Source: Antedon mediterranea (lineage: Eukaryota > Echinodermata > Crinoidea > Comatulida > Antedonidae). Taken from it: DNA of 64,000 nucleotides. The DNA is taken from positions 28,446,001 through 28,510,000 of the forward strand of contig NC_092674.1 of the NCBI RefSeq assembly GCF_964355755.1, in the 5' to 3' direction. The notes under the pieces were generated by a model. The model did not search any database. It was not told the origin of the DNA and worked only from the letters and a program-made list of their open reading frames with translations. Numbering within the stretch: position 1 is the first letter of the stretch; the number at the start of each line of letters is the position of its first letter. A program made the position numbers and the translations under genes. This document shows, piece by piece, positions 12,348 to 34,871 of this stretch.

Positions 12348-12369
12348 AGATATTACATTAATCAGATTG

Positions 12370-13632: not shown

Positions 13633-13765
13633 TTAAGCGTGGTTCCCACTAGAACGCAACGCAACGACGTATCGACGCAAGGTGCTGTATTTGCGTAATC
13701 ACAAGTGGGAACCGACCACGCAATAGTACTGAAAACATCGCAGGTTTGATTTCACGCAGACCGAT
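13633..13765. mobile_element. MITE family 1b, truncated
   Basis: The left end GCGTGGTTCCCACTAG and the GTGGGAACCGACC interior are present; the right end is lost. It lies upstream of copy B at the end of the duplicated block. Confidence 0.6.
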
Positions 13766-13769
13766 AGGC

Positions 13770-14990
13770 TCAACACAGGCGTAGCAGTGCGTACAGCGTA
13801 GGGCATATCTGATTGGTCGATTGCAGCAGCCATCTTGTTGGTTCCCTCTCCATGGAGAATCACTTTTTGAACTGCAATTACATTACAGATTCCCATCCAG
13901 CTTTCGGCTATTACAGATCACTGTAAAACATCGCAACCACGACCACGTCGCGAAGTCGAGTTGTAAGCAAAGTGCACCCTCTATAAAGTTAAGGTAGAAG
14001 TAAAAACATAAATGAGAAACGGATACGGTATATGTGCGTGTACAATTTTAATTCATATAACAAGAGAAAAACCATTATTGAACCTAAACTTACACAACTA
14101 TCTATTTGTGTTTGACGTGCTTGAAAAGCAATGAACAAACAGGTTATCTACTTTGTGGGTTCATAAAAGGGACTAAGGCGAAGCGGTAAATTTTTCAAAA
14201 ATGGTGCGATCTCATTTACAAGTTTTATTAGTATTCACAAAAATACGAGTTAAACAGATCATCTTTGTTTTGCACTACAACAAACAGACAAAACGTTACT
14301 CCGCTTCGTCTTAAGCCTGCTTTCCTGTCGACGTAAGAAGTCGAATTTTGCAACGATTCTTGCGTTTCTTGCGTTTCTTACGAAAATTGAGAAAAAATTG
14401 ACGTCGTTGATGTACTGTACAACTAACAAAACCTTACTCGGCTTCATGATTCATGACGTTGACGTACAAACTGTACAAACGTTAAAACTTAACCGCATAC
14501 ATTCTTTGACGTATAAACTGTACAAATTAAAAAAAAACGTTTTTTGACCGCTTTTATCGTTAATGTAGGCCTACAAACTTACAAAACGTTCCTTAACCGC
14601 TTTTATACACACAAACGAAATGAAGTTACTGATAAATAATTTGTTACTGAATTTTAAATTTGGCATACGGTTTCACTTTAAAGTTAAATAACGATTTTAA
14701 ACTGTACAATATTGTTTGCTAATTTATCAAATACTAGTACATTGATGCAAGTTACTAACAACTATTGTTGAGTTATTAAACGATTTCTCTATAGCTCTAG
14801 CTTAAAAGTATTTCTTTTTTTCGTTGCCACCAGAAAAAATGTCCTTAGATATTTCATTTCTGTAAATCCATTTTATTTTCGTCTATAACTGAAACTTGAT
14901 TGTTGTTTACAGGAACATTATCTGTAAAGTAGCAAATAATTAGTTTTTTCTTATTAGTTTACATATACTACTTGCCTCATGCGTAAAGCT
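13770..14990. other. Spacer between receptor copies without recognised genes
   Basis: AT-rich DNA with short repeated motifs (ACGTACAAACTGTACAAACG-like, about 14.46-14.6 kb). The missing last exon and poly(A) site of copy A may be here, but I found no exon with a matching phase. Confidence 0.4.
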
Positions 14991-14993
14991 TGG

Positions 14994-15161
14994 TTCCCAC
15001 GCAACACAAGGACGTAACGCAACGCAAGTGAATTGACCAATCACAAGCGATGGCTTATTCGCTTGTGATTGCTAACTGTCTATAACTTCGCTTGTCATTG
15101 GTTAAAACACTTGCGTTGCGTTTACGTCCTTGCGTTACGTTTTAGTGGGAACCAAGCTTTA
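14994..15161. mobile_element. MITE family 1a
   Basis: Complete element with AAGCTTGGTTCCCAC and GTGGGAACCAAGCTT ends and the CCAAT hairpin centre, downstream of copy A. Confidence 0.8.
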
Positions 15162-15248
15162 AGCATAGTCACACCGTAACATCAAAGTAGGCCTACTACT
15201 GCAGATTCATATTATACTCTATCATGCTGTTAATTCGTGTAGACTGAT

Positions 15249-15412
15249 GCTTGGTTCCCACTAGAGACGCAACACACAGAGGTAATGCAACTTATAATAG
15301 TGGTTGACCAATTACCAGCGACGGATTATTCAAATGAGTCGCTTGTCATTGGTCAAACACGCTAGTGTTGCGTTTACGTCCTTGTGTTGCGTCGTAGTGG
15401 GAACCAAGCTTA
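15249..15412. mobile_element. MITE family 1a, just downstream of copy A tail exon
   Basis: Ends GCTTGGTTCCCACTAG and GTAGTGGGAACCAAGC. It starts about 60 bases past the tail exon's donor; unspliced read-through would terminate inside it at 15330. Confidence 0.78.
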
Positions 15413-15472
15413 ATAGTGATTTATGCCGAAACCTAAACCCGGGATTATAATTCATCATGTGTGTAGGCCTAC

Positions 15473-15706
15473 CTTGTTTTGCATTAGATGGTTTGGCAGA
15501 GCATTGTCGACACTTTTTGATCGTTTGCACCGCTTTTAGGTACTGTTCCTCAATCGATTCCAGCTCTTCGTCTCTGATACCACCTCCCTCACTTGTTTCC
15601 AATCTGCTGGAGATAAGTACAGCCTTCTTCGAAGATTGTCTCAAGAACGGCAAAAGTTGTCGTTTTCTAAGAACGGTTTCTGGCAAGTCGGATAGTTGAA
15701 TGTTAT
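15473..15706 (-). CDS. Copy A exon 22: cytoplasmic tail segment
   Basis: The reading frame continues from exon 21 in phase 1 as DNIQLSDLPETVLRKRQ, then a charged, helix-forming stretch (RDEELESIEEQYLKAVQ) and KKCRQCSAKPSNAKQ. The donor CAAG|GTAGGC ends it in phase 1. Without splicing, the frame runs into a MITE at 15.41 kb and stops at 15330. I prefer splicing, but the next exon was not found between 13.4 and 15.4 kb. Possible phosphorylation sites are plentiful. Confidence 0.55.
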
Positions 15707-18700
15707 CTTAAAAGAGACAAATAAAGCAAAATCTTAAACAGCAGTGTCGAATTGTTGTCACTTCCTCTTTTCGGATTTCATTGTTTTATGTAGTAGTGCT
15801 GTTGTCGCAAGAGGAAAGACATCACGATACTGTGTAACAGTTTGGACACGATTTCAAACCTCGGAAACAGATTTGTACCAGGACCATAATAAACAAGCAG
15901 CCACGTTACAATGCCACTTAAAACTTACCCATACACATGGAAAAATCCTGGATTTTTTTAATGCGCAAAGTTCTACATTTTGCATTGTAATTTTGGTGTT
16001 GGTCAATCAGCCTTCAAGGGTATTCAAAAAAAATTATTGCTCATGAATTAAACTTTATACCAAGGCAATCTAACAATATAATGCTGATAGAGGAACTCGC
16101 AACAGTCATTTGAACTTATGTATGGCTGCAACACAAGTACTAACAGTACATATTCTTCGCGGTTCGCGGTGTCTGTTAAGGGGCGTGGAACTGATCGTGT
16201 CGCGGCCACAGATAACCCATTTGATCCCCGATTAGATTGCCTTGCTTAAACTTACCAACTTCTTTCTGCTGTGTACTCATGGTTGATGTCTCCGATGTCA
16301 ATGATTTCTTCTTTGTGTCACTAGACACGTACGATGAAAACGTGTATAGATAAGGGTTGAGAGCTGAATTCAATGGTAAAATAAAAACAGCTGTCCATGC
16401 CACGACAGTACCCGGTATATCAAGATTCTCAACCGAATGAGCCAAAATACCCATGATGATGATTGGTAGCCAGCACGCCATATCCGTGAAAACAATGAAT
16501 GCCATTTTGGCTGCCATCTTGAGTTCCTTTTTCTTGTTGTCTGTTGACTGGTTAATATTGTCCTTCAAATTCTTAGCTGATTTCTTGACACTTACGTACA
16601 TCGTTATGTAACAGAATGCCATTACCAGAAAACTCAGCGAATTCACTCCGAAGAAGAAGGTCATTGCATAGCCAGGAGCAGGGATGGTTTGATGCGAGAT
16701 TGGTAAAGCTAAACACACAGAATTCGCGCCGTAAAACTTGTCTGCTTTTACGAATATAATCGGCGCAATAGAAACGACGAACACCAAAATCCAGCCTAAA
16801 ACAAGAACGCGAATGGCGCTCTTTGGTCGCAGTTTGTATCCACCGAACGGGTACACAATGCAAATAAATCGATCGACTGTTATGACTGTTAAAATAAAGA
16901 CAGACATCTCAGAAGAGAAAGTAGCAAGAAACCCAGCTAAGCTGCACACAAAGCTGTCTTTCCATTTCTCAGCATAGTCTATATAGTCACCGTAGTAATA
17001 GGCATCAGCTGACGCTATCACCAGTAGGTAGACACCCATGAAGAGATCAGAAACCGCAAGATTTTGAATCAGGTAACCCTGTACCTTGTTCATTTCTTTA
17101 GATCGTAAACGCCAGACCAATACAAAGATGTTCCCTACGAAAGCGCTGACGCCCAGAATCCAGATGAACACTCGTAGAACGGGCTCCTTCATCAGTTCCT
17201 TACAAGACGAAAATGGATCTCCTTCCGGGTAGCATTTATCAATCTCTGTATCACAGCAGAATTTACGATAATCGGTTCTCCTGAAATCATTACAAAGTTG
17301 TAATCAACTTCCGAGAGCTTCACAATATTAATAATAATAATGATATTTATTTCGTCACCAATGAAAAATAACCAGGAGTGAGAATAGGCTAAAGCCTAAA
17401 TAGATTCTGCACTTACTCCATACAAACAGTCAAAATATAACCTTATATATAAGAAAATTAAATAAAGTAATATTTAAATAAAACTATACATAATTATAAT
17501 TAATAATTAATATTTTAAGCCAAAATATCTGATATGGTAAATAATATACAATAGATTCAACTTACAGTAGAGTCAGCTGTAAATTTTTGAACGTATCAAC
17601 GGGAACTTCATCAATGAGATTTGCTTTAATGTTACTGAAATAATGCATTAGTATTAATAATAATACACTCAGTGCTGTATCTCCACTGTATCATAGGAAC
17701 ATTTGGTAATACAGCATTCCATGCGTACAAGCATGCACTTTAAAAATAGCGTTTAAATCTTAACCATCTATTTTGTACCCACTTTTTCCACACATTTAGC
17801 CTGTAAACACAACATATTTAGCGTGTATAAAATCTAAACGTGTCTATAGCTACAAGTTTTTCCTCCACTCGTTTAGCAGTCACCATTATGTTCAGTCAAC
17901 ATGTTTAGGCACCTATTTAGCGTTGCGTGCATATGATGTTACTGTGGCAAAAAAAAAGCTTTACACATGAGCTCCACACATGGCAAATTAAACACGTTTA
18001 AAACCTAAACGTGTCTTTATATTGCTCCACATGTTTAACAATCAACACGTCACTGATGTGTTAAGTTGGATACATACTACATGTTTAGAATGTATTTAGA
18101 ACCTAAACAGTTTCATATCTAAACATGTTTAAGGCTAAATGTGTGGGAAAAGTGGATACAAAATATATGTTTAAGATCTAAACACTATTTTTATAGTGTG
18201 AATAAGCATACATGGTTTTTACTTACACTTCTCTAAGTGCTTGTGTTAGTACGCTGGTGTGAATACGGCGAATGTTGTTAAAGCTCAAGTCGCTAAAAAA
18301 ATAATTAATTTTAATTTTTTTAATAGTTAATTAATACTCAATTTTTAATTACAAAATATTTGCGTCATTGTGGCATACACCTCCGACAATAAGGTTATGT
18401 TTTCGCTATCTTGGGTCATATTTTTTTTCTTAACAGTCATAACTCTGTATCCCACTAGGACGCAACGCAAAGTCGTAAACGCACCGCAGGGTCGCAAACG
18501 CAACGCAAGCGGGTTGACCAACGACAATTGACACTCTGAATAATCAATCACTTTAATTGGTCAGATCACTTGCGTTGCGTTGCGTCGTAGCTGGAAGCTT
18601 TTTTAATTGAACACACGATTAAAAAAATGTCGTAAACAACTTCTCTTACACAGACCTTCTGATACGTTTATGTACCAGAAACGATCGCATTATAATGACG

Positions 18701-21700
18701 ATTTTTATAATAACAATTATTATTATTTCAAAAAATCGAAATGAAATCTTACAGATTTCTCAGGTTAAACAATTCTTTAAACACGTCAGTAGGAAGAGAT
18801 TTTATGTTATTGTGCGACAGATCTCTGGAATAGAAAAAAAAATATAGAAATTACAAATATACATACTACTTTAATATTATTATTATTAGAAACGCTATTT
18901 GGCATCTAAGATATAGACGTTGAAGCGAACATGAAGTGTACTACATGCAATTTTAAATACTTACAACGTGTGAAGAAATTTAAATTCATCAATAATTTTA
19001 AAGAAATGTGTTGCGTTCTTTTGTAAACATCCACTTAGGTTTCTAAAATGAAAAAAAGTAAGAAGAATTGAACGTCTTAACCGTACAGAGAGTTGAATAT
19101 TTAAGGGCCTGGAGATGATGGTATTGAAACTTAGCCGGTTCCAGAGGCGTTACGCAGATGCCTTGGGGTTTTTAGCCCTTTTTTAATACCGGTTTTTTTC
19201 CTCTGGGCACTGCTCAGGTGCTCCCATAAGCTCCGGAGCCCCTGGGTTTAGTCATTGAGCGCTCATCATAGCCATTAACGTCACTGGTTCTCGCATGCTG
19301 CATGACACATGAAGGTGGTCTATTATGGTGTGGAAAAGAAGACTGTAAAAGTATTTTCGGTATTTTACTTTTACTCACAAATATCTAGCAGACACCGGAA
19401 GTAGCTGCACGTCAGCGATGCTCAAATAATTTGCAGGTGACGTCACACAATCTACTACAAATCCCGAACAAGTGCAACTTGGCGGGCATGAGATACCTAC
19501 AATATAACAGGTAATTTAAAGAGTAATATAAAACTGAAATATGTATCAATTGCGCGAAGAAAAAACCTTTTTAATATATGTAAAATGTCATCAACAGAAC
19601 AATAATAATGAAATGTCCTTAGATAGATTCCATAACAACGCAACGCAGCGCGTATCGACGCTAAGTGCTGTATTGCGTAATCACAAGTGGGAACCGACGA
19701 CTGCAAACATCGCAGGTCTGATTTCACGCAGGCGGGGACAAACACAATGATTGGAAGGGCCTTTTCTTACGTTGCGTAGATTGCGTTACGTTGCGTCGCT
19801 AGTGAGAACTAAGCTTAAGTCATAAAACGTTACAACTTTTAACTTACCACAAAACTGTTCGTCATCACCGCTTGGACAGTGCTTCACACCATCACATACT
19901 TCCAATGGCGATAGGTATTGCTTGGACGAGCGACAGCGGTAAAAGTTAGGCAGTACATAATCATCTGAAGCATTATACAAAAAAAAACTCAATACGTTTT
20001 ATGTTGTATCGCTGTATAAAGCTTGGTTCCCACTAGAACGTAACGCAAGGACGTAAACGCAACGTAAGCGTGTTGACCAATGACAAGCGAAGTTATAGAC
20101 AGTTAGCAATCACAAGCGAATAAGCCATCGCTTGTGATTGGTCAATTCACTTGCGTTGCGTTACGTCCTTGCGTTGCATGGGAACCACGCTTAAGTAACA
20201 TTGAAAATGACGCGTCTTTCAACCAGGAACAACCAAAATTGTGTGACGATATAGAGGGCGCTATACACATAATTTTTTTTTCTGTCTCTAAGTTTTCGTA
20301 GCCAGGATGAGCACAAGGCGTGTCGTCACACATCATCTAGCTAGCTAATGGAGTTTTTTGGTAATCGGATAATAATTAGATAATTTCTTTTTCTTTCCCA
20401 AATATAAATGACAAAAAAAAGGAGCATACCGCAATGATTCTCATCCTCTCCATTCGGACAGTCCCATTCCTTGTTACATCGTAGCCTTAACGGAATACAG
20501 TACGAATCAGGGCATTTGTACATATAAATCGAACACTCAAATGTTTCTGTTGGATGAATAACATGCTAAGTAATAATTACATCACTTTACATTTATGTAT
20601 TTTCAGGGAATGATGACGATTGTACGCGACAGTGTATAGCGCTGTAGGCCTGCTGTATGTACTACTGTATCTACTGTAGCAATGATTATAAAATATGCAT
20701 CCTCCATAATATATATGCGTGGAAATAAAAACCAACTGAATTGAAGGCAGTATGCCTGAATAGCGCCAACTATCATACAAAAACCATTCAGTGGAGTTTA
20801 ATCGCACGCACACTTACAAACTGAAAAACCAGACTTCTTACCGCAATCTCTTAGATGTGTCACATCTCTGCACCCAACTTGAATTCCGTATATATCAATA
20901 TCATATATGCATTCTAACGTCTTGTTATAGCAGGCGCCATTATCACAAACGCCTTCATCATCCGCACAAAAATCGTCGGATGTTGCCGTTCTATATTCTA
21001 TATGCAAATTATACAATTATTTTATTTTTTTGCTAGTGTCATAAATACAGAAAAGATAGGTGCTTTGCTTGACCAGTGTGACGCTTCGATATGCACTACA
21101 TGACGCTTTGCTGTGCCTGTGACGCTTCCTTATGCACTACATGACGCTTTGCTGTGCGTGTGACCTCATTATGCACATGACGCTTTCCTGTGCGTTAGGA
21201 CGCTTTGTTCATGCACATGACGCTTTGTACTGCACCAAAGGCTCGGTGTACAGACGCTTCGTTATGTACTAAATGACGCTTTACTTGGTGTATGACGCTT
21301 TACTATGCACATGACGCTTTGCTGTGCGTTATGACGCTTTGTTTATGCACATGACGCTTTGCTCTGCTTCCAAAAGCTTCATAATAATAAGGAAGGAATG
21401 AAGAGAAACCGTATATCTGTCTGAAGAGAAACCGTATATGCCATATATTTATAAATATTTGTCGTATTTAATATGTTAACTACAGTACATACCACATTCA
21501 TCATATTCATCTTCATGATTTCTACCTGGGCAGTCGACTGTCCCGTCACATACAGCGTGCTCTGGAATACAACTACCATCATAACACTGGATAAACCCAG
21601 ATGCACAGGCATCTAATATGAACAAGACAATGAGCATTTAGCGGTACGTTCGAGCAATGCGTCTCGTGGGATTTTTGTTGACGCATCAAATATCATAACG

Positions 21701-24700
21701 TAGGCCTAAATAGCACAGCCCTACCAATGTTACACGTAGAAGTGAGAAACTTATTTTCTGACATGAGAAATGCTTTATTTCACTCTGTCTTTATTTACGA
21801 GATTCCGGTACATATTACGGAAATGTCCCTTTACAATGAAAGTAAAATTTTTCTCTGATTTTTGTATTTTTCATATAACCGGATTGTAAATGCTTAATTA
21901 TGTCAACCAACACTATTAGCGAGTCTGAGATATTTTTATTGCTTTTTGACACTCCGCCAGAATGGTGTCCTGGTTTTTTTTTGTATTGTTATCATCATGT
22001 ATACTTGTTTTTTATGTGTTATTTATGTTTTCTGGAAAATAAATGAATATGAATGTGCATTTATTACATAATGAATTACAAGAAATTGTTATTTTTACCA
22101 CAATATTCATCTTCGTCCTCATTTTGGTCACAGTCTTTGACGCCATTGCAAAATAAGTTTTCATTTATACAGTTTCCACTTCCACAAGCCCTTTTACCGT
22201 CTGGACACGTGCGGGTAAAGTCTACGAAAATACATTTATAACAACTATAATTCATAGATACAATAAAGTTTAACTGCCCATAGACCTTTTCAATACTCTC
22301 AACAAATGTATAATATTCCTTGTCTTAACTTATCGGTAGTGTAAATACTTACTACAGGAATTTTCATCGTCCTCATTTCGCAAATCCACTTTGCCGTCAC
22401 ACAACAAAGACAGTGAAACGCATTTTTGCTCTTGTTCTGACGTGCAAAACAAAGCTGAAAACACAACATGTTGGGTATGTCTTATTCTGGGTTCCAGACA
22501 GAGTTTTGACTTAATATTAGTATAAGACAAATAGTTTGGCACATATGGCGTTTCATACGTATACTATTTTCCAGACAAAACTCGAATCGACTGGTGGACT
22601 AAGACAATAACTACAGACTTGGGGCAAGTCTAGATATGTCGTTAACAATTTTTGCACAATTCATGGTTATGAATTCCACAAATTTGGTCTTATTGAAAAG
22701 GGACTTATCATTACTATTATTTATTCAGGCAAAAGATACATTTACACAATTCTCTATATCCGGAGTAATCTCAATAATTAGAGTAATCTCCTATATATCT
22801 GATATTGAGATCTCACTGTTCCCTAATTACTTACTTTGTTCTCTTTCTTGGCACATAACTCCGTCTTCATCGGATGCGTCAGCGCAATCGTTCACACTAT
22901 CACAAGTAAACGCGTCAGCAACGCAATCTCCAGACTTACATTGGAAATAATGAGGTGATTGACAGATCGACGGTTCTTTAGAATCTTCAATAGTCATACT
23001 CACATTCTTAGTGAATACTGCGAAACAAAATGATAAAAATAAGTGTCAAAGAGAAGCGACGCAGAAATCACAAATTATTTATTTAAACATGTGGAGCAAT
23101 ATAAAGACACGTTTATGTTTTAAACGTGTTTAATTTGCCATGTGTAGAGCTCATGTGTAGAGCTTTATTCCGCCACAGAAAACAATCGTATGCACGCAAC
23201 GCTAAACACGTACCTGCTAAACACGTGAATGATTTAAACACGCTTAGCATGTAACTACGTGTTTAAAAACTCCACACTATTTTTACAGTGTAAGATCTCA
23301 TCACTCTTCCTTTAAAAGTAAGTGTCAAAGAGGAGCGAATGCAGAACTATTTGTATCCGTTGACCATCAAACATAGTCAATAAGGTAGACTGGTAGTAGA
23401 GAAATATAACTAATAGAACATAATTCATGCATCCCCTATATACCAAAGAAAAGTCTGAATATAGAGGTGCGACCAAGACGCACATATCGTCTTTCGGGAC
23501 GAATTCACCTATGAAAAGTCTGGATAAGCTCATGAGACTAAAATTGTATGATGCTTCAGTGCCACGCTTATGTGAGGTTCAGATAATTTATATTATGTAT
23601 AATACAGGCATAACGTACAACTTGTATGCACTTGTATGCATATTAAAAAGATGATATTTGAAACATATTGCTAGCTACTATTGCTACTGCAAAATTGGGG
23701 TTGTAAACATTTAGCTTACTATCACTTTGTTGTGTTTGTGTTTTTTGTTTTTTTTTTTTTTTTTTTTCTGTCTCAAAATGTCATTTTTTGTTTGTTAATG
23801 TACTGCGTCCGTATAATATGTTTTATGTTTATGCTTAGGACTACAAAGACAAGCCACTTTGGCTTCTGTGTATCTTAACCCATAAACTTTGTAAAATATT
23901 GAATATTGAATAAATGTTGTATAAAAAAAAAAAAAAAAAAAAATTGTATGGCTTGTGTGCATTCTTTTTTATGAGATTCTCAGTTCGAGTCGTCTTGATT
24001 CGTCGGTGCTGTCTGAGTTGCTGCACGACGTGACGAATAGTCTGTCGAGATAGCGTCGGGCGTAGTTTTTAGGTCGTCGGGACGCGACAACTCGTCGGGC
24101 CTCGTCGTACAACGCTATCTGAGTTATACAGCATCTGTTGTGATTCTCTCGTATCATGGAATATTAAGTTTTAAGGGTTTGTTTGGGGTGTATGATACAT
24201 GCTTCACATTGTGTTTTTTTGCATGTGATGATGTCTCACGAAATGTGCCTATGATTACAGATTAAAACACAGTACTGAAAATCAGCTCCTTATTTGGCCA
24301 TTATTCTGAGCCTGTGTACAGTACAAACTACGGTGGTTATTATGACGGCGGTTATTATGTGAGGGTGGTTATTATGTGACGGCGGTTATTATTTGACGGC
24401 GGTTATTATGTGAGGGCGGTTATTATGTGACGGCGGTTATTATGTGACGGCTGTTATTATGTGAGGGCGGTTATTATGTGACGGCTGTTATTATGTGACG
24501 GCTGTTATTATGTGAGGGCGGTTATTATGTGAGGGCGGTTATTATGTGACGGCGGTTATTATGTGACGGCAGTTATTATGTGACGGCGGTTATTATGTGA
24601 CGGCGGTTATTATGTGACAGTGGTTATTATGTGACGGCGGTTATTATGTGACGGCTGTTATTATGTGAGGGCGGTTATTATGTGACGGCTGTTATTATGT

Positions 24701-27700
24701 GACGGCTGTTATTATGTGACGGCTGTTATTGTTTGACGGCTGTTATATGTGACGGCTGTTATTGTTTGACAGCTGTTATTGTTTGACAGCTGCTATTCGA
24801 CGGCTGCTATTGTTTGACGGCGGTTATTATGACGGCGGTTATTGTTTGAGGGCGATTATTGTCTGCAATGGTTATATTGCTGCAGATCAATGCAACAAAT
24901 GTCAGAGGGGTTGAGTAAATACAAACAAACGAAAAAAGGGTAATTAAACAAGCACACGATGTTGACCGCTTCGTTGATTAACATGGATAATGGATAGTGT
25001 TTGTAAATGTTCTAAATTTAAATTGACGGTTAATGAAACCTCAAACATATTCACCATCATCATATTGTGTAATTGTCAAGTTTAGTTGATAATTTTGACG
25101 TTAAAAACATTTCTTGTTTCAATATTTATTAGTGAACGAATATTAAATCACGAACATAATTTAATTGATTGACACTATTTTGTCGAGAAAATGTTTACTA
25201 AAAAAATTATTATATCAAATTTGTTTAAACCAGTACAGCGTACCAACATTTGCAATTTCATTTAGTTCTTTTAAATCATTATATAGTCTTTATATTATAA
25301 TTAATATTATTATTTGGATATTCTTCCAGGCAGGGATTTGACTTTTATGAAAATTAAAAAATATTCGTTAAAAAATAACTTTTTGGCATACATGGCGTGT
25401 CATAATACTTTCTAGGTCTATTATTAGTTATTATTGTAATTATTCCGATTTGTAAAGATGTTCGATGTACCACCTTACCTCCCGATTATGCAGCTGTCAC
25501 TACAGATACAGATTGCCTTAATATCACGTTGTCATTAGGTTAATATCTACAGACAAGTGTTAACGTGTCTGTATTATAGTTAACCTACTGACAAAGGTAA
25601 TTTAATACAGGTAGACTCGATTTCAGATGACTTGCGAGAATCAGTTAGGGTCTATCTAGTGACAGCTGCAGAATCGAGTAACTTTAAATCTACAGTCACA
25701 CTTGTTTCGTTTCAAGGAAAAGAAGACGGCACAGTTCAAATATGTGTACAATTTTCAATAGTTTAAAAAAACAGAGCCGTTATCCGTTCCGTAAAACAAA
25801 ACAAGTGTGATGTAGCTGTATCCTCCATCGTTTTCTTAATATGTTTGCACTAAGACGAAGCGCTGGTGAATATTTTTAAACTAATGTTAACAATCCAGAG
25901 TTTATGATGTATATAGTTGCTCAGACCTCAGACTTTATGCTAAGTGCATTTGAGAATGTATACAATGTATACTGTACTAACCGTCACTTGTTATTGGTTT
26001 TTGGCAGAAGACATAGTTGATTTTTTTGCGAGAGCATGCGATATCCCGCCATTGATCCGTTCTTGCAACCGTCTTCATTCTAATGATCGTACATGCATCG
26101 ACCATACTGCTACCAGGATGACGGGATAAGAATTCGCCGCTAGTGTATCTAACAAGTATAGATAACATTCCTTACTCAAAACAACTTTTAGGACCATGGG
26201 TAACAAGAGCCCTTCAATCCCAATCTCCGGGCTATATGAGCGCTCACTGGCTAAGCCCAAGGGAAGCCGGAGCTTATGGGGGCCCCTGAGCAGTGCCAAA
26301 AAGAAAAACTGGCATTAAAATATGTCGAAAAAGGCTAAAACGCCCGAGTCTTAGAGCCGCAGTCACCTGCGTTACGCCACTGGCTCCAGGGTTTAATCCT
26401 GATCTGGCATGGTCATGGTACTCCACTCCCTATGCCTCAACATGGGACAGATAAAGTTTCTCGCTGTTGGACGGATGTATGTGTATGTGTAATTGGACAT
26501 AGTGAGGGTCCTCGTGTTAAAGCATTGATTAACCCAAACTTGTAACTATTACTTACATAGATGACAGATACCAACTCATATAGTTAGCTGGTTGGCGGGT
26601 TATCCATCGGAATCGCTGATGAAACTTCTGATCTTCTGAAGAGTCTCTTTGCAAACCTTCAGAAATAATTAAACGATTATTATAAATCTAATGATGATGA
26701 TGATGATGATGAAACCATATTATTTAAGAAACGTGGATATATGGGTACAAATGCCGATCAAAATAGACGATATCGCAATCAATTCAGTAGTTATAGACTA
26801 GAATAATGAACACGTCTTCTTACCTATAGGAATATATCCACCTATGATATCCGGTACTTCTGAAAGCAGCAATGAATGTACAAACTGCATTTCATCATGT
26901 GAACGTATGTTAGTGATATTACAATCGTGTGTGTTTATACAATAGTGATATGCTTGGTACCACGTAATGGGATCGTCTTGCCTTTCTAGTAGATAGCATT
27001 TGTCATTGTACTTAGTCCAATTTTCTGGACAGGAACCTAAAAGACACAAATTAATTCAATGTAAGGACCTAAAGCAACACAGTATGGTTTCCAATCACAA
27101 GCGACGTATCTTGCTAACTCTTGCTTCTGATTGGTCAAATTACTTTTGTTGCACGTATATACGTCATTGAGTTGCGTCATGTGGGAAAATGTAATTCAGG
27201 CCAGTTAGGCTACAAGACACAGGTCATACATGTATATTATATGATATACAAAATGAATGCATAGTATCAACTAATTAAAGTAGTAGGGCCACTAACAACC
27301 GTGACAGAACGATACAGATAGACTTGCAAAGTCTACCTGTCTACCAACTAGTTTAAAAAAAGTGCGATGTGCCCAAATATGCATTATGATAGTGTAGACA
27401 TAGCTTTTTAGGTTAAGTTTGATACATTAAAAACAATACCTTTAACGTTCTTGTCAATCAATTCTGGTTGAAACGTTCTTGTCGTATAACGAATCACGAA
27501 TCCATTTCCTGCCGAATTTTCACCAACCTTCTTGTATATTACACGTAAAAAATGATTAAGCGAGTTAAACTGCTCGTCACCTTTGCATACTTTAGGATTT
27601 ACCGCATCTCCGTCAGTCTCACCGTTTCTTAAAATCGAAAACTCCAGTGATGCTTCGAAGTCTACCTCGCATGATCCATTTAAGCCTAGATCGAAGTAAA

Positions 27701-30700
27701 TGACGTCGATATGAATGTATGAACCAACAGGCACCTCAATCTCCCATTGTGTCTCAACACTTTTGACTTGATGTGGGTACATGTATGACGCAATCAATGC
27801 ACTTGGCATATTACAGGTGTGTATACAGCCGTCGCATCCACTTCCAAATTCACAACCTGGAGTATCTGTAAAAAATGTATAAATCCAAAAGCAAATTACT
27901 GAAAATAATTACAATGCTGTGGGTATCAGTGACTGGATCTCAATGGATATACAAAATGACAATGCTGTGGGTCTCAGTGGCTGGATCTCAATGGAGATAC
28001 AAAATGACAATGCTGTGGGTCTCAATGACTGGATCTCAATGAAGATACAAAATGACAATGCTGTGGGTCTCAGTGGCTGGATCTCAATGAAGATACAAAA
28101 TGACAATGCTGTGGGTCTCAGTGACTGGATCTCAATGAAGATACAAAATGACAATGCTGTGGGTCTCAGTGGCTGGATCTCAATGAAGATACAAAATGAC
28201 AATGCTGTGGGTCTCAGTGGCTGGATCTCAATGAAGATACAAAATGACAATGCTGTGGGTCTCAGTGACTGGATCTCAATGAAGATACAAAATGACAATG
28301 CTGTGGGTCTCAGTGGCTGGATCTCAATGAAGATACAAAATGACAATGCTGTGGGTCTCAGTGACTGGATCTCAATGAAGATACAAAATGACAATGCTGT
28401 GGGTCTCAGTGGCTGGATCTCAATGGAGATACAAAATGACAATGCTGTGGGTCTCAGTGACTGGATCTCAATGAAGATACAAAATGACAATGCTGTGGGT
28501 CTCAGTGACTGGATCTCAATGGAGATACAAAATGACAATGCTGTGGGTCTCAGTGACTGGATCTCAATGAAGATACAAAATGACAATGCTGTGGGTCTCA
28601 GTGACTGGATCTCAATGAAGATACAAAATGACAATGCTGTGGGTCTCAGTGACTGGATCTCAATGAAGATACAAAATGACAATGCTGTGGGTCTCAGTGA
28701 CTGGATCTCAATGAAGATAACAAAATAAAATAAGCAAAAAAACTAAATCAAAACGATAAAGTAAAACAGCCAGAAAAAGTAGCAGAGCTTTCGTGCAACA
28801 TTAGCCTTTCATCAGTCTAAAGAAAATGTATATAAATATTTGTAACGCAATGGCTTACTGTACACTTAAATTAGATCAATATCTGTCTGCACGTATTGCT
28901 GTTGGGAAGACTAGGCGTTCAAGGTAAACGCGTTTTTATTGATGTTGTGTAGACTCTATGCGTTCAAGAGAAACGCGTTGGATTGCTGTTGCGCGTGTAG
29001 ACTAGGCGTTCAAGAGAAACGCGTTTTAGTGCTGTTGCGTAGACTAGGCGTTCAAGAGAAACGCGTTTTATTGCTGTTGCGTAAGCTAGGCGTTCAAGAT
29101 AAACACGTTTTATTGCTGTTGCGAGGACTAGGCGTTTAAGATAAATGCGTTTTATTGCTGTTGCGTAGACTATGGGCGTTCAAGATAAAGGTATACATTC
29201 ATTGCTCGTATCGTACGATCAGACGTCCACCGTTCATTTCTTCCATACAAGCCTCGCGCTCTACACTCTTATACAAGACGTGTGTACACTACTTACCCAC
29301 TGTAAAATAATCCGCCTCAAAATAGCTCTCACTTTCTCCATCTTTAACTGTCAGTATTATAACCACTGTATAATTGGATGACCTCACGTGTGGCATCTTA
29401 TCCCCGCATCTTTTTCCAGTTAAAGTTTGACGACGAAACGCATTATCCATCACTTCCAAACTGTCTTTGTCACATTGCCCTTGGTTGGATCCTTGCTTGA
29501 TGTTAAACAGTTTAAACTGAATTTCAATGTATTTAGTTGTTTTAGTCGTGATGGTGTATATGTAGCTAGTCCGTGTCCACACATGGTGAAAAACTTCTGA
29601 CAATATGGTACCATTGGCTGAACTGTAAACTGAAACACACCATTCAATTTATTTATATATCTTAAGGAGTTTTTGATATGAGACGACCTATGACCTAAAA
29701 CCAATTACGTCATGCAATTCATTGCAGCATGCGCGCGCGGAAACTAGTTTTTTCGACTTAAGTTTTGTCCGATTCAAAGTTCGCCCTAGTACGACACAAT
29801 GTGTTCTGGTCGTCGTCACAAATTGAACAATTTCTAGTATGAATAGTATTTTACTTACAATTTTCTGTAGGGATGGGACACCCATACATCGTAAAATCAA
29901 AAAATGCCATACGTGCCGGTGCTGTCTTAATATTTAGTTGGAGAATATACGCAAAAATCGGCATATTAAAAACATATACAGCAACACCGTTCTCAAAATT
30001 CTGAAAACAACGACGATATAATACGATTACTGCTACTACTACTTAATAACTAAATATTTGGAAAACAATTCCTTTTAAAACGTATTTAATATACTATTGA
30101 ATATAACATATTGGAAGTAATGTATAGCGTAACTGGGGAATAACGTTTTGAATGATATTATGACGAATGTCACCCACCATATTATTTGTAATATTTGGCG
30201 CATAACCAAGAACAGTTCTACTGCCCGAAGCGAATTTATCCAGGCTGGACCAATGTTGGAGGCAAATTGGTTAATTGATTGATTGATTGGACAGGTTAGT
30301 AGCCATAAATGGTCCCCGGATAAATTTCGCATGCTGATCTGATGTTAAGTATAACACTGAATTTTAACATCAAGTTAGGCCCTGCAGTAGGCTACTTCTT
30401 TAGAATATGTGAATCAAAAGATATTTTTTTGTTTCTACCTTTGTTATGCTTCTGTTATATAAAGACTCGTTGAAAATGTTTCCATTTTGACTGAAATTCA
30501 AACGACTTATTTCTAGGTTGGTAATTTCTGGGAGGCCTAGGCACTGTTTGAAACGGATGCCCGTTACCACGTACAACCGGTCCAAGTTGGCCCTCAAAAG
30601 GTGTTGGCCTGTACCATTTGTCTCAAAATCACAGTGTGTCTGAGTGCTGGGAATACCATCGCCATCGATTGATGCAGTTACGGCATCTATTTGTAAACCA

Positions 30701-30979
30701 ACAGGTTCCGGAAAACTACCTGAAAAATAATGCTAAAAAATATCATTTGTGTTTTCTAAAGCGTGGTTCCCACTAGAACGCAACGCAGCGACGTATCGAC
30801 GCAAAGTGCCGTATTGCATAAAGCTTGGTTCCCACTAGAACGTAACGCAAGGACGTAACGCAACGCAAGTGAATTGACCAATCACAAGCGATGGCTTATT
30901 CGCTTTTAATTGTTAACTGTCTATAACTTCGCTTGTCATTGGTTAAAACGCTTGCGTTGCGTTTACGTCCTTGCGTTAC

Positions 30980-31019
<40 letters not shown>

Positions 31020-32011
31020 TAGGTATAACACTCAAAATGCAACAAAAGTTGAAAATCTTATGAGTTTACAAAAGGTACAACAACAAAAACCGAGATAAAG
31101 ATATAAAACAATAGGCCTATACTAAAATTGACATAAAAACAAAACCAATTAAAACATCATACAAAATTTAATATGCACAAATTTAAAATTAATGATTATT
31201 ATTAGATCTAATTAATAGAAATTCAGAAATATATACAAGTTTAAAATTATTCATTATTCATTATTTATAAAGTCCACTTAAAATTTAAATTAAAAAATGT
31301 CATTAATTCCAAGGATCAATACAATTACTGTATTATTATTTATTTAAAATTCTTATTGCACTAGGAAGAGTTGAATTCCCATAACGGTTAGTTCTACATC
31401 TAGGTACACAGTACTTGTTGAAGGAACGTAAAGTCCTCTCGGGCTTGATGTTCTCGGGTATCCACGAAGTGAAACGCCCAGATGTCACCAGACTGCTTCC
31501 AAATTTGGCAAGTACACCTAACCGTCTGTCTTGTAAAGATGTTATATTCAAGATTTCTAAAGTGTCTTGGTACCCCGTGGGAACCAAGCTTTAGCTAGTT
31601 ACGCTTACATCTTTGCGTTGTGTTTGCTGTTGAAGAAGTAATTTGACCAAGCAATGGTTCAGCCAAACTGCCATGTTGCTTGTAATTGGTCAAATTACTT
31701 AAATTGCGCGTACGTCCTTGTACTTCATCCTCATTGGAACCAAGTTTTAAGACGTCTACTTATGAAACGCAATTGACGACACGAATTTATTTCGATTTTT
31801 AAATTTCAAGAACGCAAAGCTTTACCTTTATTATCAACCCCTGAACGCGCGCATTACAAAAAAATGACAGTTCGTTGTATAACTTAACTAACAAATAAAC
31901 GCAAAACCTTCAATAAAACTCACAATTCAGTTCTTCGGCAGAAGAAGTTACACATAACATTACAAAAAACAATAGGTATACGAAGCGGTCTTGGCTCGTA
32001 AACTGTTCCAT
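15473..32011 (-). CDS. LDLa/CUB/C-type lectin LGR-type G-protein-coupled receptor, copy A (GRL101-like), 22 exons
   Basis: Predicted plasma-membrane receptor with a very large mosaic ectodomain and a rhodopsin-family 7TM core. Coding exons (high to low coordinate): 32011-31924, 30719-30439, 30000-29859, 29629-29297, 27865-27440, 27036-26824, 26635-26557, 26148-25982, 23017-22835, 22454-22353, 22221-22099, 21612-21493, 20997-20842, 20546-20430, 19964-19848, 19496-19379, 19042-18965, 18824-18753, 18292-18227, 17634-17566, 17280-16256, 15706-15473. GT/AG sites and phases agree at every junction, giving about 1358 codons to the end of the 7TM exon plus about 78 in the tail. Most ectodomain module exons are symmetric phase 1-1 and the LRR exons are phase 2-2, the pattern expected of exon shuffling. 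The family resemblance is to GRL101 and relaxin (RXFP) receptors; the ligand is unknown. The stop codon was not found: the last exon ends at a GTAGGC donor and a final exon is unresolved. Confidence 0.85.
16256..17280 (-). CDS. Copy A exon 21: cysteine hinge and rhodopsin-family 7TM domain
   Basis: The exon opens with an LGR-type hinge (KFCCDTEIDKCYPEGDPFSSC) and runs straight into TM1. Visible class-A landmarks are GN in TM1, NLAVSD in TM2, the DRF version of DRY followed by ICIVYPF, CWLP in TM6 and NPYLYTF (NPxxY) in TM7. The cytoplasmic side after TM7 is Ser/Thr/Lys-rich. Reading on gives a stop at 16176, but a perfect GTAAGT donor after 16256 in phase 1 fits the acceptor of the tail exon at 15706, so the 16176 stop is probably intronic. 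The glycoprotein-hormone/relaxin receptor group is the closest recognisable family. Confidence 0.92.
17566..19496 (-). CDS. Copy A exons 16-20: LRR N-cap and four leucine-rich repeats
   Basis: Exon 19496-19379 encodes a cysteine-rich LRR N-cap (CPPSCTCSGFVVDC) and changes phase from 1 to 2. It is followed by four phase 2-2 exons of 78, 72, 66 and 69 bp (19042-18965, 18824-18753, 18292-18227, 17634-17566), each one LRR; the clearest is DLSHNNIKSLPTDVFKELF. Single-repeat exons of about 72 bp in one phase are the hallmark of LGR genes. Four repeats is fewer than in most LGRs. Confidence 0.85.
17741..18198. mobile_element. MITE family 2 (copy A intron)
   Basis: Counterpart of the element at 313-744, with the same long inverted ends and small internal indels. 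Confidence 0.75.
19848..23017 (-). CDS. Copy A exons 9-15: seven LDL-receptor class A repeats
   Basis: Seven consecutive phase 1-1 exons each encode one LDLa module: 23017-22835, 22454-22353, 22221-22099, 21612-21493, 20997-20842, 20546-20430 and 19964-19848. Repeats 1, 3, 4 and 6 have six cysteines and a recognisable acidic calcium-binding end (for example DCADASDEDGVMC and DCPNGEDENHC). Repeat 2 lacks cysteines II and V. Repeat 7 lacks cysteines I and III. Repeat 5 keeps six cysteines but has lost the acidic Ser-Asp-Glu end (GCRDVTHLRDC). LDLa repeats sit N-terminal to the LRRs in GRL101 and RXFP receptors. Confidence 0.85.
20018..20193. mobile_element. MITE family 1a, copy A intron
   Basis: Orthologous to 2788-2972. 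Eight bases before the right-end GGGAACC are missing. Confidence 0.78.
21060..21375. repeat. Degenerate ATGACGCTTTGC minisatellite, copy A
   Basis: Counterpart of the copy B array at 3850-4165 with near-identical unit order. Confidence 0.75.
23091..23291. mobile_element. MITE family 2 fragment, copy A only
   Basis: Contains family-2 internal sequence in the opposite orientation (AAACACG-type motifs) and ends near CACACTATTTTTACAGTG. A ~25-bp sequence (AAGTGTCAAAGAGRAGCG...) is present on both sides, and copy B lacks the insertion. Confidence 0.6.
23641..23944 (+). mobile_element. Retroposed LINE/SINE 3' end with poly(A), copy A only
   Basis: Contains the hairpin AAGCCACTTTGGCTT typical of non-LTR 3' UTRs, an AATAAA signal (23909) and a ~21-base poly(A) run. 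TTGTATG flanks both sides and may be the target duplication. Absent from copy B. Confidence 0.65.
24000..24130. other. CG-rich TCG-repeat patch inside copy A intron 8
   Basis: A short patch dense in GTCG/CGTC dinucleotide steps, unlike the AT-rich surroundings. It is part of the DNA present in copy A but not copy B. Identity unknown. Confidence 0.35.
24325..24870. repeat. 17-bp minisatellite in copy A intron 8
   Basis: About 30 units of TTATTATGTGACGGCGG with GAGGGCGG and ACGGCTG variants. Absent from the much shorter intron of copy B. Confidence 0.9.
25982..27036 (-). CDS. Copy A exons 6-8: C-type lectin-like domain
   Basis: Exons 27036-26824, 26635-26557 and 26148-25982 join in phases 1 and 2. 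The product has the long-form CTLD layout: Cys-Pro-x-x-Trp-Thr-x-Tyr-x-x-x-Cys-Tyr, then TWYQAYHYC, an IGG-type core ending FRWIT, and a terminal QWRDIACSRKKINYVFCQK, where Cys-x(n)-Phe-Cys closes the fold. The canonical sugar-specifying EPN or QPD tripeptide is absent, so calcium-dependent sugar binding is doubtful. Copy A has an extra cysteine (HDCN) where copy B has glycine. Confidence 0.8.
27440..27865 (-). CDS. Copy A exon 5: cysteine-rich leader plus CUB-like domain 2
   Basis: A phase 1-1 exon of 142 codons. A short cysteine knot-like leader (CEFGSGCDGCIHTC) is followed by a second CUB-like beta sandwich: WEIEVPVGSYIHIDVIYFDL, a CEVD segment, a Val-Cys-Lys-Gly segment and a terminal GNGFVIRYTT, which matches the 'GF...Y' end of CUB domains. 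The upstream intron (28.7-27.9 kb) is filled by a 48-bp minisatellite that is not part of the exon. Confidence 0.7.
27909..28728. repeat. 48-bp minisatellite in copy A intron 4
   Basis: About 17 near-identical 48-bp units (ACAATGCTGTGGGTCTCAGT...). Because 48 is divisible by three and the unit lacks stops, both strands show a long open frame. Copy B has a single related unit at about 8590-8635, so the array expanded after or during divergence. Confidence 0.92.
28890..29200. repeat. 43-bp minisatellite, copy A intron 4
   Basis: Counterpart of 8818-9262 with about seven divergent units (AGGCGTTCAAGAGAAACGCG). Confidence 0.85.
29297..29629 (-). CDS. Copy A exon 4: CUB-like domain 1
   Basis: A single phase 1-1 exon of 111 codons. 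It starts with FYSSANGTI and has strands of the type TKYIEIQFKLFNI, then CDKDSLEVMD, GKRCGDKMP and a C-terminal YFEADYFTV. The order hydrophobic strand, Cys-Asp-x-Asp-x-Leu-x-Val, Cys-Gly-x-x-x-Pro is the second half of a CUB domain. The first disulfide of a typical CUB is missing, so the domain is CUB-like with two cysteines. The donor is GTAAGT. Confidence 0.65.
29859..30719 (-). CDS. Copy A exons 2-3: discoidin/F5-8C-like domain
   Basis: Exons 30719-30439 and 30000-29859 join in phase 0 to give about 140 residues. The segment starts with Cys-Ser-Phe-Pro-Glu-Pro and contains an ASIDGDG motif, two internal cysteines and several N-glycosylation sequons. It ends in a beta-strand pattern (FDFTMYGCP) that resembles the terminal Gly-Cys of F5/8 type C (discoidin) domains. 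I assign a galactose-binding-like fold on this pattern only. Similarity is weak and a profile comparison has not been made. Such domains usually bind carbohydrate or phospholipid outside the cell. Confidence 0.55.
30761..31592. mobile_element. MITE family 1 pair interrupted by a LINE 3' end
   Basis: A truncated left-end copy (30761) is followed by a full copy starting at 30821. The full copy is split at CGTTACGTTC by a poly(T)-headed insert, and its right end GTGGGAACCAAGCTT resumes at about 31577. Confidence 0.8.
30983..31577 (-). mobile_element. 5'-truncated non-LTR retrotransposon (LINE) 3' end
   Basis: On the minus strand a short ORF end (TNRYGNSTLPSAIRILNK then stop at 31336) has the 'T-R-Y-x-N-S-x-x-P-x-A-I-R-x-L-N' signature found at the C terminus of many metazoan LINE reverse-transcriptase ORFs. 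An A-rich 3' UTR and a ~34-base poly(A) tail follow, seen as poly(T) at 30984-31017. It interrupts a MITE, so it is younger than that MITE. Confidence 0.7.
31924..32011 (-). CDS. Copy A exon 1: start codon and signal peptide
   Basis: The start methionine (MEQFTSQDR...) is followed by a hydrophobic core (VYLLFFVMLCVTSSA), a good signal peptide with likely cleavage after the small residues SSA. The exon ends at a GTGAGT donor in phase 1, which joins exactly to the phase-1 acceptor of exon 2 at 30719. Copy B has the same start and the same hydrophobic segment with minor substitutions, which supports the start choice. Confidence 0.8.
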
Positions 32012-32053: not shown

Positions 32054-32080
32054 GATATTACAGTACATTAATCAGATTGT

Positions 32081-32110
32081 CAATACCCACCCATGTTAAT
32101 TATGGGTATT
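32081..32110. promoter_or_regulatory. Conserved palindrome upstream of copy A
   Basis: Copy A counterpart of the palindrome at 12370-12396 (ATACCCA...TGGGTAT). Here it is close to the TATA motif because no MITE intervenes. Confidence 0.3.
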
Positions 32111-32111
32111 T

Positions 32112-34300
32112 GTTCCGGTGTATAACTGACGTATTGTAAACTAATGTCAAGTGACAGCAACGCAAACGACGTTTATTTTTTTCAAATTAGATGCTGTCAC
32201 GTTATAAGTTTTAGTTTTCATCAGAGAAAATTAAACACGATGATATCTGAGACAACAATTTTCTCATAATACATCAACAATTGGCATGAGTGTACAATGT
32301 GTGTAAAAGCATGTCTCATCGTAAGCAAAAAACGTTGACAAGGTAAAGAATAGACGACCCTGAAATGGGGACACAATCAATTACAGAACAATGGATACGA
32401 ATATTTTACTGCTAAATTAAAAGAGCCGATTTATTAATAACCAGAGTGCCACACAAAGAACTAAAAGCTTGTTTCTTTTCCAATCTTTTGATTGGTCTAT
32501 TCGATTGCGTTGTTGTTGCTAACGTCATTGCGTTGCGTACTAGTACGTACTAGGAGAACCAAGCTTAACGTGTGGAGGTGTGACTTTGTAATAAAGAAAC
32601 GGACACAATTGTCGTATTCGATTGGAAACTTTCGTTGTCAACGTAAAGATTTGTTGAGTACTTTTTGTATTCGAATTGTAAATTTGTGCTCAACAGAAAG
32701 TCATTCGAATAGAAAACGTTGACAACGAAAGATTTTTCGTTAAGAACAATCTCAACGCTCAAAATACTCCGTTAAAGAAGTACTCAACGGAAAAACTACT
32801 CAACGGTACACTCGAATATGACAAATGGCGATATAAATAAGGGTCTGAGCCGGAGCAGGCTAAAGTTGTCAATGAAGCGTAGGCCTATCAAGCTAGCACC
32901 ACGAAAGTTAAATCATAGAAGTATAAAAATAGACGTATACAAATAGACATACTATCCCTAATACTTTGTTTTGTTTCACGTGACATTTTGTCGACAGGAC
33001 CACAATAGTGGGGTTCACATGGAACTATGTCTAGAAGAAGTGGATTTAACAATTTTCTACTAACTGGACTAACCTTGACAAATCCCGTTCTTTGGTACAA
33101 TTATGTCTAGTTAATTAAATTTCATAAAATCCTGGTATTGGAGATTTTAAATGCTATTTTATGTTTAAAAAAATCATCTATTTCTTTTATTTATCCCGTA
33201 TGTTGTTTACTTTTAACTTCTGATTACAAACAATTGGTCATTTTACTTTCTGTGTTAAATTTTGTATTCTATTTTTCAGTATAGTAAATATTTTAGGCCT
33301 ACCATCTTCTAATATCTATTAGACCTCTGTCCTCGTCAGACATAGTTCATTTAATTTTTTAGGACATTTTATGGGGTACACAATGAAGAATGACCATATT
33401 CTTTGCAATTCAAATGTTAAATATGAAAATGAAATGGGTTAAAAAATTCTTCAATTTCATTGGTGCAAATGAGGCTAAAGGCCACCCACTGGGTTGTTAA
33501 TTGGATTACCCTCATAAAATAACTGGCTATCCTTGGATTTACTTCTAAATCCAAGCAGCAATAATTGTCCAGAAAAAAAACATCATCCGGACATAATTGA
33601 GCGTTCACATCCAAATTATGGCGAGATCATGTAGATAATCTACTTAAATTAACTAGCCATAGTTCGATGTGAACGCCACTAATGCAAAACAAGTTTATCT
33701 CTACTTGATTGTGTATTATCCTGTATAAATATGTTGTTAAAATAAATAAATAAGGTTTCACTACGTTATAGCTCCATGGTTAAATCATATCTGAGATAAC
33801 TATAGTTATCTCATATCATATAGGCCAAATACTTTTGATGTTAGAATAACTAAAATAACACACACCAGACAGTGCTCACAGGTATTATATAATGTTTGGC
33901 GGATGCGCTGCTTGAAACTTAATAGGCCTAAAGATCTTTAAATTACGCTGTCATGTTAGTCAATAACTGTCAGCGATCAATCAGTGTTCTTATTTGAATG
34001 AACCACTCATCATAAACGATCACATTGCAAATTTTAATTGACTGGCTATACCAAATTTACTCGGGTTTCCTATTTAGAAAGAAAGGGGTTTAATATAACA
34101 TGCGCCTTACATAAACAAACTCACAAAATTATCCATTCGCCCACCTGAAATACGACGACTGTTGAAATAAGTGCGACGCTGACACGTGACCAATTAGTAA
34201 GACAATTACAATGGACACAATAAGATTATTTTACGAATTTGACGCCGACACGTGTTCAATCAGCAAGCTTTTTAGTCGCGTGCAACGCGACTCTACAGCT
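32112..34300. other. Upstream region of copy A
   Basis: Homologous to 12.4-13.46 kb upstream of copy B, but with about 1.2 kb extra (about 32.35-33.86 kb), including a degraded MITE family 1 end at 32.5 kb. No coding sequence was recognised. Confidence 0.5.
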
Positions 34301-34307
34301 AACTATA

Positions 34308-34550
34308 GCGTGGTTCCCACTAGAACGCAACGCAGCGACGTATCGACGCAAAGTGTTGTATTGCTAAAAGCTTGGTTCCCACTAGAACGTAACGCCAGGA
34401 TGTAAACGCAACGCAAGCGTTTTAACCAATGACAAGCGAAGTTATAGACAGTTAGCAATCACAAGCGAATAAGCCATCGCTTGTGATTGGTCAATTCGCT
34501 TGCGTTGCGTTTACGTCCTTGTGTTGTGTCGCTAGTGGGAACCACGCTTT
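34308..34550. mobile_element. Composite MITE family 1 (partial copy plus full copy)
   Basis: A truncated left end at 34308 runs directly into a full element at about 34369-34550. The same partial-plus-full arrangement occurs at 30761-30821, suggesting the composite itself moved or that one long variant was repeatedly invaded. Confidence 0.7.
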
Positions 34551-34871
34551 TTACCACGCTTTACGGCGTTATGGCACGCCGCATTATTTTCTATTTTGCA
34601 GAAATCTGCAACCGTATTAGACAACATTCAATTTCACTCCCACTTGTTTTGTTATCATTGTAGATTAGCATAACATTACTTTATTATCATATAGCCTTTT
34701 TTATTTTCCAACTGTCTTAATAAAAATATGAAAAAATAACTACACAACATATATTTAATATTAATTCTAATAACAATAATTTTCCCAACGTACTATCATC
34801 AAACCGTTGGTACTTTTTCCTTAATCAACAGTGCGTGTGAGGGAGTACGGTTGTTTGAATGCGAATGTGTT

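Follow-up and report, generated by a model that had tools for sequence, protein, structure and literature searches.

Type C LGRs are divided into types C1 and C2 by LDLa number (PMC4561518; type C2 is also used in PMC11863921; further family background is given in PMC4079206 and PMC11521371). GRL101-like receptors, which belong to type C2, are orphans, and ideas about them in the literature include an insulin-like growth factor (IGF) receptor and an immune sensor. Here we describe a receptor gene in a 64,000-nucleotide stretch of Antedon mediterranea DNA (assembly GCF_964355755.1, contig NC_092674.1, positions 28,446,001 to 28,510,000, forward strand), hereafter the window, whose first letter is position 1. 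With a probability of roughly 0.6, we read the locus as one gene present in two tandem copies, A and B, and encoding a type C LGR of the GRL101-like (C2) kind. Its distal modules would bind a large extracellular ligand, and its LDLa, leucine-rich repeat (LRR) and hinge segments would relay this binding to a seven-transmembrane (7TM) domain.

Like the GRL101 receptors of Lymnaea and of ambulacrarians, the receptor combines many LDLa modules, LRRs and a class A 7TM domain. Unlike them, it carries two CUB domains, a C-type lectin-like domain (CTLD) and a further N-terminal domain provisionally labelled discoidin-like, none of which is described in the accessible text on those receptors (PMC8286064, PMC11863921). 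The closest published case is the SudRes2 region of Biomphalaria sudanica, which holds 12 GRL101-like genes, ten of them with LRR, LDL and CTL domains. Its authors discuss a recognition role in schistosome resistance and call the CTL domain unique to these receptors (PMC12297450). Both systems have tandem genes, a 7TM domain, LRRs, LDLa and an N-terminal CTLD, but the LDL repeat is singular in SudRes2, as against seven LDLa exons here, and neither a CUB nor a discoidin-like domain is mentioned in the accessible text (PMC12297450). RXFP1 and RXFP2 (type C1) offer the nearest solved 7TM domain and likewise link LDLa to activation, but they have one LDLa and 10 LRRs, and the available part of the source describes no CUB or CTLD in them (PMC4561518). 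Amphioxus Adhesion GPCRs also combine CUB, Lectin C, LDLa and discoidin modules with a 7TM domain, yet they belong to the Adhesion family, many with a GPS, and have another class of 7TM domain, which makes them a parallel and not a relative (PMC2246102).

The initial annotation of this DNA had described the architecture as one not known from vertebrate LGRs. The ectodomain does exceed those of RXFP and published GRL101 receptors, but that annotation missed the CTLD-LDLa-LRR-7TM receptors of Biomphalaria (PMC12297450). CTLD-bearing GRL101-like receptors are thus already published, going by the accessible text of that paper; what would be new here is the presence of CUB domains on a GRL101-like LGR. 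Searches of the open-access literature returned no LGR with CUB domains.

Gene model and ectodomain modules

Copy A lies on the minus strand at 15473-32011. Its 22 exons have GT-AG borders and compatible phases and join into a stop-free frame of 1443 amino acids. The model was assembled from open frames, splice sites and copy B, and an independent reading of the splice sites re-derived the chain first annotated as one open reading frame (ORF) without phase conflict, with identical ends (exon 1 start at 32011, exon 22 end at 15473). From the N terminus, a signal peptide (exon 1, 31924-32011; 91% identical to copy B 11795-11882) is followed by a two-exon domain (exon 2, 30439-30719; exon 3, 29859-30000; both also read in copy B), CUB1 (exon 4, 29297-29629), CUB2 (exon 5, 27440-27865) and a three-exon CTLD (exon 6, 26824-27036; exon 7, 26557-26656; exon 8, 25982-26148). 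Seven LDLa-type exons come next and lead to an LRR N-cap (exon 16, 19379-19496), four LRR exons (exon 17, 18965-19042; exon 18, 18753-18824; exon 19, 18227-18292; exon 20, 17566-17634), the hinge and 7TM domain (exon 21, 16256-17280) and a cytoplasmic tail (exon 22, 15473-15706). The LRR block between LDLa and 7TM is therefore short, an N-cap plus four, with exons 18 and 19 also seen by Pfam.

At the 3' end, the earlier model stops at a possible donor at 15473, and the unspliced frame reaches a stop at 15330-15332. In a paralog on contig C11, the exon homologous to exon 22 continues to its own stop. An ORF at 31336-31590 was considered as an additional exon and dropped by eye, the chain being complete without it. 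Copy B, also on the minus strand, extends from window position 11882 past the window start and ends 1940 bases beyond it. Exons 1-20 occupy 127-11882, with the 7TM and tail exons outside the window, 159-1940 bases from its start (L001). All 22 exons are present, with the frame kept and free of stops. Copy A is a real, single and probably functional GRL101-like gene with an unusually rich ectodomain.

Searching the joined copy A protein with Pfam hidden Markov models recovered 7tm_1 (E 1.9e-37), Ldl_recept_a (1.2e-30, six stretches), CUB (2.1e-12, two stretches) and LRR_8 (8e-10). Both CUB-like domains of the initial annotation scored above the Pfam cut-off of 21.4 bits, CUB1 with 43.7 bits and CUB2, at 21.9 bits, barely. 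Seven LDLa exons were read, as annotated: LDLa1 (exon 9, 22835-23017), LDLa2 (exon 10, 22353-22454), LDLa3 (exon 11, 22099-22221), LDLa4 (exon 12, 21493-21612), LDLa5 (exon 13, 20842-20997), LDLa6 (exon 14, 20430-20546; supported by Pfam) and LDLa7 (exon 15, 19848-19964). Five of the seven contain six cysteines, while LDLa2 and LDLa7 contain four. The LDLa7 exons of copies A and B lack two cysteines kept in the C11 paralog, possibly both partners of one disulfide. LDLa5 is unusual in form, reading GCRDxTHL in copy A. In A, B and the C11, C7, C5, C1, C4 and C3 paralogs it reads CRD plus (S/T)(H/L)L, mostly GCRDx(S/T)HL (window 20842-20997; the L003 region of C11; L006, L010, L024, L025, L027 and L028), which looks like a signature of the receptor group.

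Pfam, searched up to E 10, returned nothing for the CTLD of copy A. A phmmer search of the PDB returned C-type-lectin folds, including EMS16 chain A (6.8e-8, one domain) and the PLA2 receptor (3.9e-8 as the sum of several weak domain matches). In the C11 paralog, the CTLD homologous to that of copy A passed Pfam Lectin_C with 34.3 bits (cut-off 22.6). Together these matches support the C-type lectin assignment made for copy A at the outset. Ca-dependent sugar-binding C-type lectins are marked by an EPN or QPD motif paired with WND. The corresponding sites read HPG and WRD in copy A, QPE and WLA in the C11 paralog, QPL and WFE at a C5 locus, and EPK and WKE at a C1 locus; a C4 locus showed the second site only, as WNE. 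None of these five loci had the complete pair, and on these sites a canonical sugar-binding CTLD was ruled out. Since the canonical motifs are missing, the suggestion that the receptor recognizes carbohydrate lacks support, and other modes of binding are possible.

The two-exon N-terminal domain was the least readily classified module. At a limit of E 10, Pfam returned nothing for it, and its three weak matches in the PDB (best 0.32) included no F5/8 domain. Aligned by hhalign with three F5/8 domains taken from this genome, it scored 15.1, which at least 8 of 100 shuffles exceeded, and hhalign against CUB led to no assignment either. Global alignment to these three F5/8 domains outscored all 500 shuffles (z 4.1); with the end residues kept in place, it outscored 494 of 500 (z 2.4). 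Controls gave z 0.1 with CUB as the target and z -0.3 with the CTLD as the query. Exon 3 resembles the second exon of F5/8 domains from seven fetched loci in size and position, and its alignment score on its own lay within the shuffles (66 of 500 reached it). A search of the genome with the domain found copies A and B only. AlphaFold models from two-sequence alignments had predicted local distance difference test (pLDDT) scores of 40.0 for exon 2 alone and 44.5 for exon 5. The earlier discoidin-like assignment thus keeps the global alignment in its favor but finds no support from Pfam, F5/8 structures in the PDB or hhalign.

Family placement and related loci

As first annotated, the frame ends in a 7TM domain, identified by 7tm_1 as a member of the rhodopsin family. 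Its nearest solved structure in the PDB was RXFP1 (3.5e-62), followed by TSHR (6.9e-46) and LHCGR (8.1e-45), with LGR4 (6.5e-25) far behind. The domain contains LAVSD, DRF (in the place of DRY), CWLP and NPYLY, and a hinge sequence, FSSCxxLM, precedes TM1. Adhesion GPCRs are marked by GAIN/GPS and 7tm_2. Pfam found no GPS in the joined protein at E up to 1 and assigned the 7TM domain to 7tm_1, which excludes the Adhesion family; the earlier term "adhesion-type" does not hold in the family sense.

A 7TM tree was built from 43 rows, namely 39 loci of the same genome together with A, B, RXFP1 and TSHR. Copies A and B grouped with the C11 paralog (support 100/98) within a group of 36 rows (98/95). 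RXFP1 grouped with L053, L056 and L057 (93/81), apart from A and B, and TSHR joined L054 and L055. Placement outside the RXFP1 clade, combined with several LDLa modules, fits an LGR of type C2, that is, the GRL101 type. Assignment to RXFP or type C1, with one or two LDLa, was rejected on the seven LDLa exons and on the clustering of RXFP1 with those three loci.

The C11 paralog (C11:22066643-22078364) repeats the order of copy A, with CUB, CUB, CTLD, LDLa 1-7, LRR N-cap, 7TM (61%) and tail, the LDLa2 match being weak (E 0.013). Its CTLD donor lies 224 bp from its LDLa1 acceptor, in the same phase as in copy A. An acceptor of the expected phase was found for 15 of 15 exons and a donor for 14 of 14 (LRR exons 17-20 lay outside this check), although the scan picks its sites, such that single exons could agree by chance. 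Upstream of the C11 CUBs (L002) are a Lectin_C match (E 9e-7), an EGF-like frame and a CUB-like frame (CUB E just 0.016), at L002 positions 833-1297, 1498-1632 and 4148-4450; these are either additional N-terminal modules or part of a neighboring gene. Successive matches to the LRR N-cap exon at C11:22071529-22074165 look as if this exon had been locally repeated.

At four further loci (C7:14.076-14.112, C5:14.467-14.481, C1:20.215-20.226 and C4:21.379-21.388 Mb), a 7TM domain with 44-49% identity is preceded on the same strand by CUB, CTLD pieces and LDLa. By tblastn, their CTLD pieces ranged from 5e-8 (C5) to 0.006 (C4). In a scan of 76 of 116 7TM matches (weak class A matches and second pieces of split 7TMs were removed by eye) against 116 of the 151 CUB matches listed (many tandem-cluster rows, and the CUBs of A and B, lay outside), at least 9 of the 76 LGR-type 7TM places, at six loci, were preceded on the same strand by a CUB no more than 40 kb away. 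Control orientations gave 0. These counts are lower bounds, and four of the nine places belong to a single C9 cluster and share one CUB. Two neighboring genes would be copied by a block duplication as readily as one, so copy B by itself is weak evidence for a single gene. The order and phase of the C11 paralog and the company of CUB and 7TM at the further loci do bear out the single gene originally proposed, as opposed to a split between 26.0 and 23.0 kb.

LGR-type 7TM domains have expanded in tandem on C1, C3, C7, C8, C9 and C10, giving about 70 related places, fragments included. This number sits badly with the single GRL101 ortholog per species reported for ambulacrarians in the accessible text of PMC8286064. 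In the tree, six CUB-bearing rows were spread over several branches, with weak support for how the early branches are ordered, and a single CUB-bearing clade was rejected by the approximately unbiased (AU) test (p 0.0007; 36 rows, with L053-L057, B and TSHR omitted and the C9 row excluded from the CUB group). A 25-row 7TM expansion is nested among the CUB-bearing rows. In one expansion member on C9 (L068, L049; C9:16713490-16724959), a CUB at 16713490 is followed by LRR N-cap and LRR frames and then, at 16723985, by the first 7TM. Most simply, the CUB-bearing ectodomain would be old in the type C2 clade of this genome, not a recent fusion, and would have been trimmed variously; independent gains are possible. 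An ambulacrarian member that carries two CUBs and a CTLD, with an ectodomain of such age, would suggest that the lectin-bearing schistosome-resistance receptors of snails are not an isolated invention.

Divergence between copies A and B

Exons of the two copies share 91-100% of their DNA sequence. The ratio of nonsynonymous to synonymous substitution rates (dN/dS, Nei-Gojobori) was 0.41 for the whole protein and differed strongly between modules. It was lowest for the 7TM domain (0.09; 3 nonsynonymous and 9 synonymous changes) and the tail (0.09), and stood at 0.23 for the signal peptide. The N-terminal domain reached 0.76, CUB1 1.22 and CUB2 1.23.

Grouping the outermost modules against the signaling part gave rounded counts of 36 nonsynonymous changes in 931 sites for the N-terminal domain and both CUBs, compared with 4 in 980 for the 7TM domain and tail (Fisher p 5e-8). 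Synonymous changes were evenly distributed (10 of 251 and 12 of 280 sites; p 1.0), and the nonsynonymous-to-synonymous contrast between the two groups gave p 0.0002. These values carry the caveats that the groups were picked after the ratios had been seen, that counts are small, and that synonymous divergence (dS) is variable (0.15 in the CTLD). The ratios and the Fisher contrast indicate that the outermost part has been nearly free to change while the signaling part has been held, and they support faster evolution of the outer part than of the 7TM domain. Copies A and B offer a paired test of whether specificity is determined by the distal modules on a conserved 7TM domain.

Ligand, activation and competing readings

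If the locus is one gene encoding a GRL101-like receptor, its discoidin-like, CUB and CTLD modules would most likely bind a large extracellular ligand, such as a protein, the matrix or a microbial surface. Capture of ligand by this array, or by the LDLa and LRR modules, would shift the unit formed by LDLa, LRR and hinge, including the FSSCxxLM sequence before TM1. By analogy with the use of LDLa in RXFP1, the shifted unit could then switch the 7TM domain, which would signal through G proteins. For RXFP1 and RXFP2, the accessible text describes the LDLa module as required for signaling and possibly acting as a tethered ligand once hormone has bound the LRRs (PMC4561518). A pattern-recognition role for the receptor is possible. 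A more far-reaching version, which we consider rather less likely than not, would make the old GRL101-type clade a set of germline-encoded recognition receptors for microbial, allogeneic or environmental cues. Its members would couple a CUB-CTLD-LDLa array to G proteins, with the discoidin-like and CUB modules diverging freely or diversifying and the 7TM domain held.

Several observations weigh against our reading of a receptor with an old, ligand-binding distal array. The gene structure is read from genomic DNA. The discoidin-like label is suggestive and unproven, and the tree behind the C2 assignment consists of own-genome rows, RXFP1 and TSHR. In the comparison of copies, the CTLD (dN/dS 0.22) and the LDLa modules (0.40) are constrained, and the LRRs stand at 1.16, a value resting on 5 changes. 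Low constraint on the discoidin-like and CUB modules may reflect relaxation or diversifying selection, between which these counts do not distinguish. The array is also incomplete among relatives. In the 7-9 kb upstream of four of the 25 expansion rows (L029-L032), copy A as the query matched neither LDLa nor CTLD, and the profile that detects the C1, C4 and C5 CUBs found no CUB. The C9 member gave no LDLa or CTLD match between its CUB and 7TM, and at two loci of a C3 group the 7-9 kb searched contained LDLa and no CUB. These patterns allow several histories of module gain and loss.

A serious, if rather doubtful, competitor is a peptide-hormone receptor, in which an insulin-, IGF- or relaxin-like peptide would act on the LRR and LDLa modules and the discoidin-like, CUB and CTLD modules would be accessory, serving localization or stability. 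The affinity of the 7TM domain to RXFP1 is in its favor, as is the proposal by Veenstra of IGF as the GRL101 ligand, made on the grounds that LDLa modules bind positively charged surfaces (PMC8286064). Ambulacrarian GRL101, however, is described in the accessible text of the same paper with LDLa and LRR only and as one ortholog per species studied. The LRR block here is short, and the roughly 70 related 7TM places, some of them fragments, would exceed the few insulin-like peptides.

The two copies could, with a lower probability, be two haplotypes that the assembly has placed side by side, which would make the substitutions between them allelic. Similarity extends past the gene on both sides, with A 32064-35003 matching B 12354-13759 and A 13941-15472 matching the part of B that lies 5642-1941 bases ahead of the window. 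The units abut near 13.8-13.9 kb, and synonymous divergence is about 5%. A true tandem duplication predicts an identical picture, and aligned flanks with abutting units fit both duplication and end-to-end haplotypes. Aligned blocks of the 5' half, with the exons counted in, are 81-87% identical, as against 91-97.5% for their exons, a divergence that would be high for alleles.

We consider it unlikely that the receptor is chemosensory, belonging to a lineage-specific GRL101-like expansion that reads environmental or conspecific cues. The large tandem expansions of related 7TMs would suit such a role, and a GRL101-like gene is reported as over-expressed in the sensory tentacles of the crown-of-thorns starfish relative to its tube feet (PMC6267866, accessible text), but no locus combining CUB, CTLD and LDLa lies inside the big clusters. 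Finally, that the model merges an LDLa-LRR-7TM receptor (23.0-15.5 kb) with a secreted discoidin-CUB-CTLD protein (32.0-26.0 kb) is highly improbable, and this reading was rejected: exons 8 and 9 do lie about 3 kb apart, with a 17-bp minisatellite in the gap, but the splice phase is compatible across it, the homologous C11 exons are just 224 bp apart with phase kept, and CUB and 7TM occur together at four more LDLa-bearing loci.

Three minisatellites were seen in the window, at 27763-28830 (48-bp unit) and 24241-24831 (17-bp unit), both intronic in the receptor gene, and at 53490-54127 (22-bp unit). Upstream of the receptor on the minus strand, an N4BP2-like gene (42835-51482) and a GALNT-like gene (57844-63070) were recognized by eye. 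The genome matches listed all fall on C1-C11, perhaps 11 chromosomes, and cox1 had no match in the assembly. Contig C2 carries an ordered Hox cluster at 7827797-8206141 (7.83-8.21 Mb) with one gene on the opposite strand, deuterostome-like by eye and pointing to an ambulacrarian, whose members we take to be Hox1-4, central genes, a 9/10-like gene and 11/13-like genes without a UbdA peptide.

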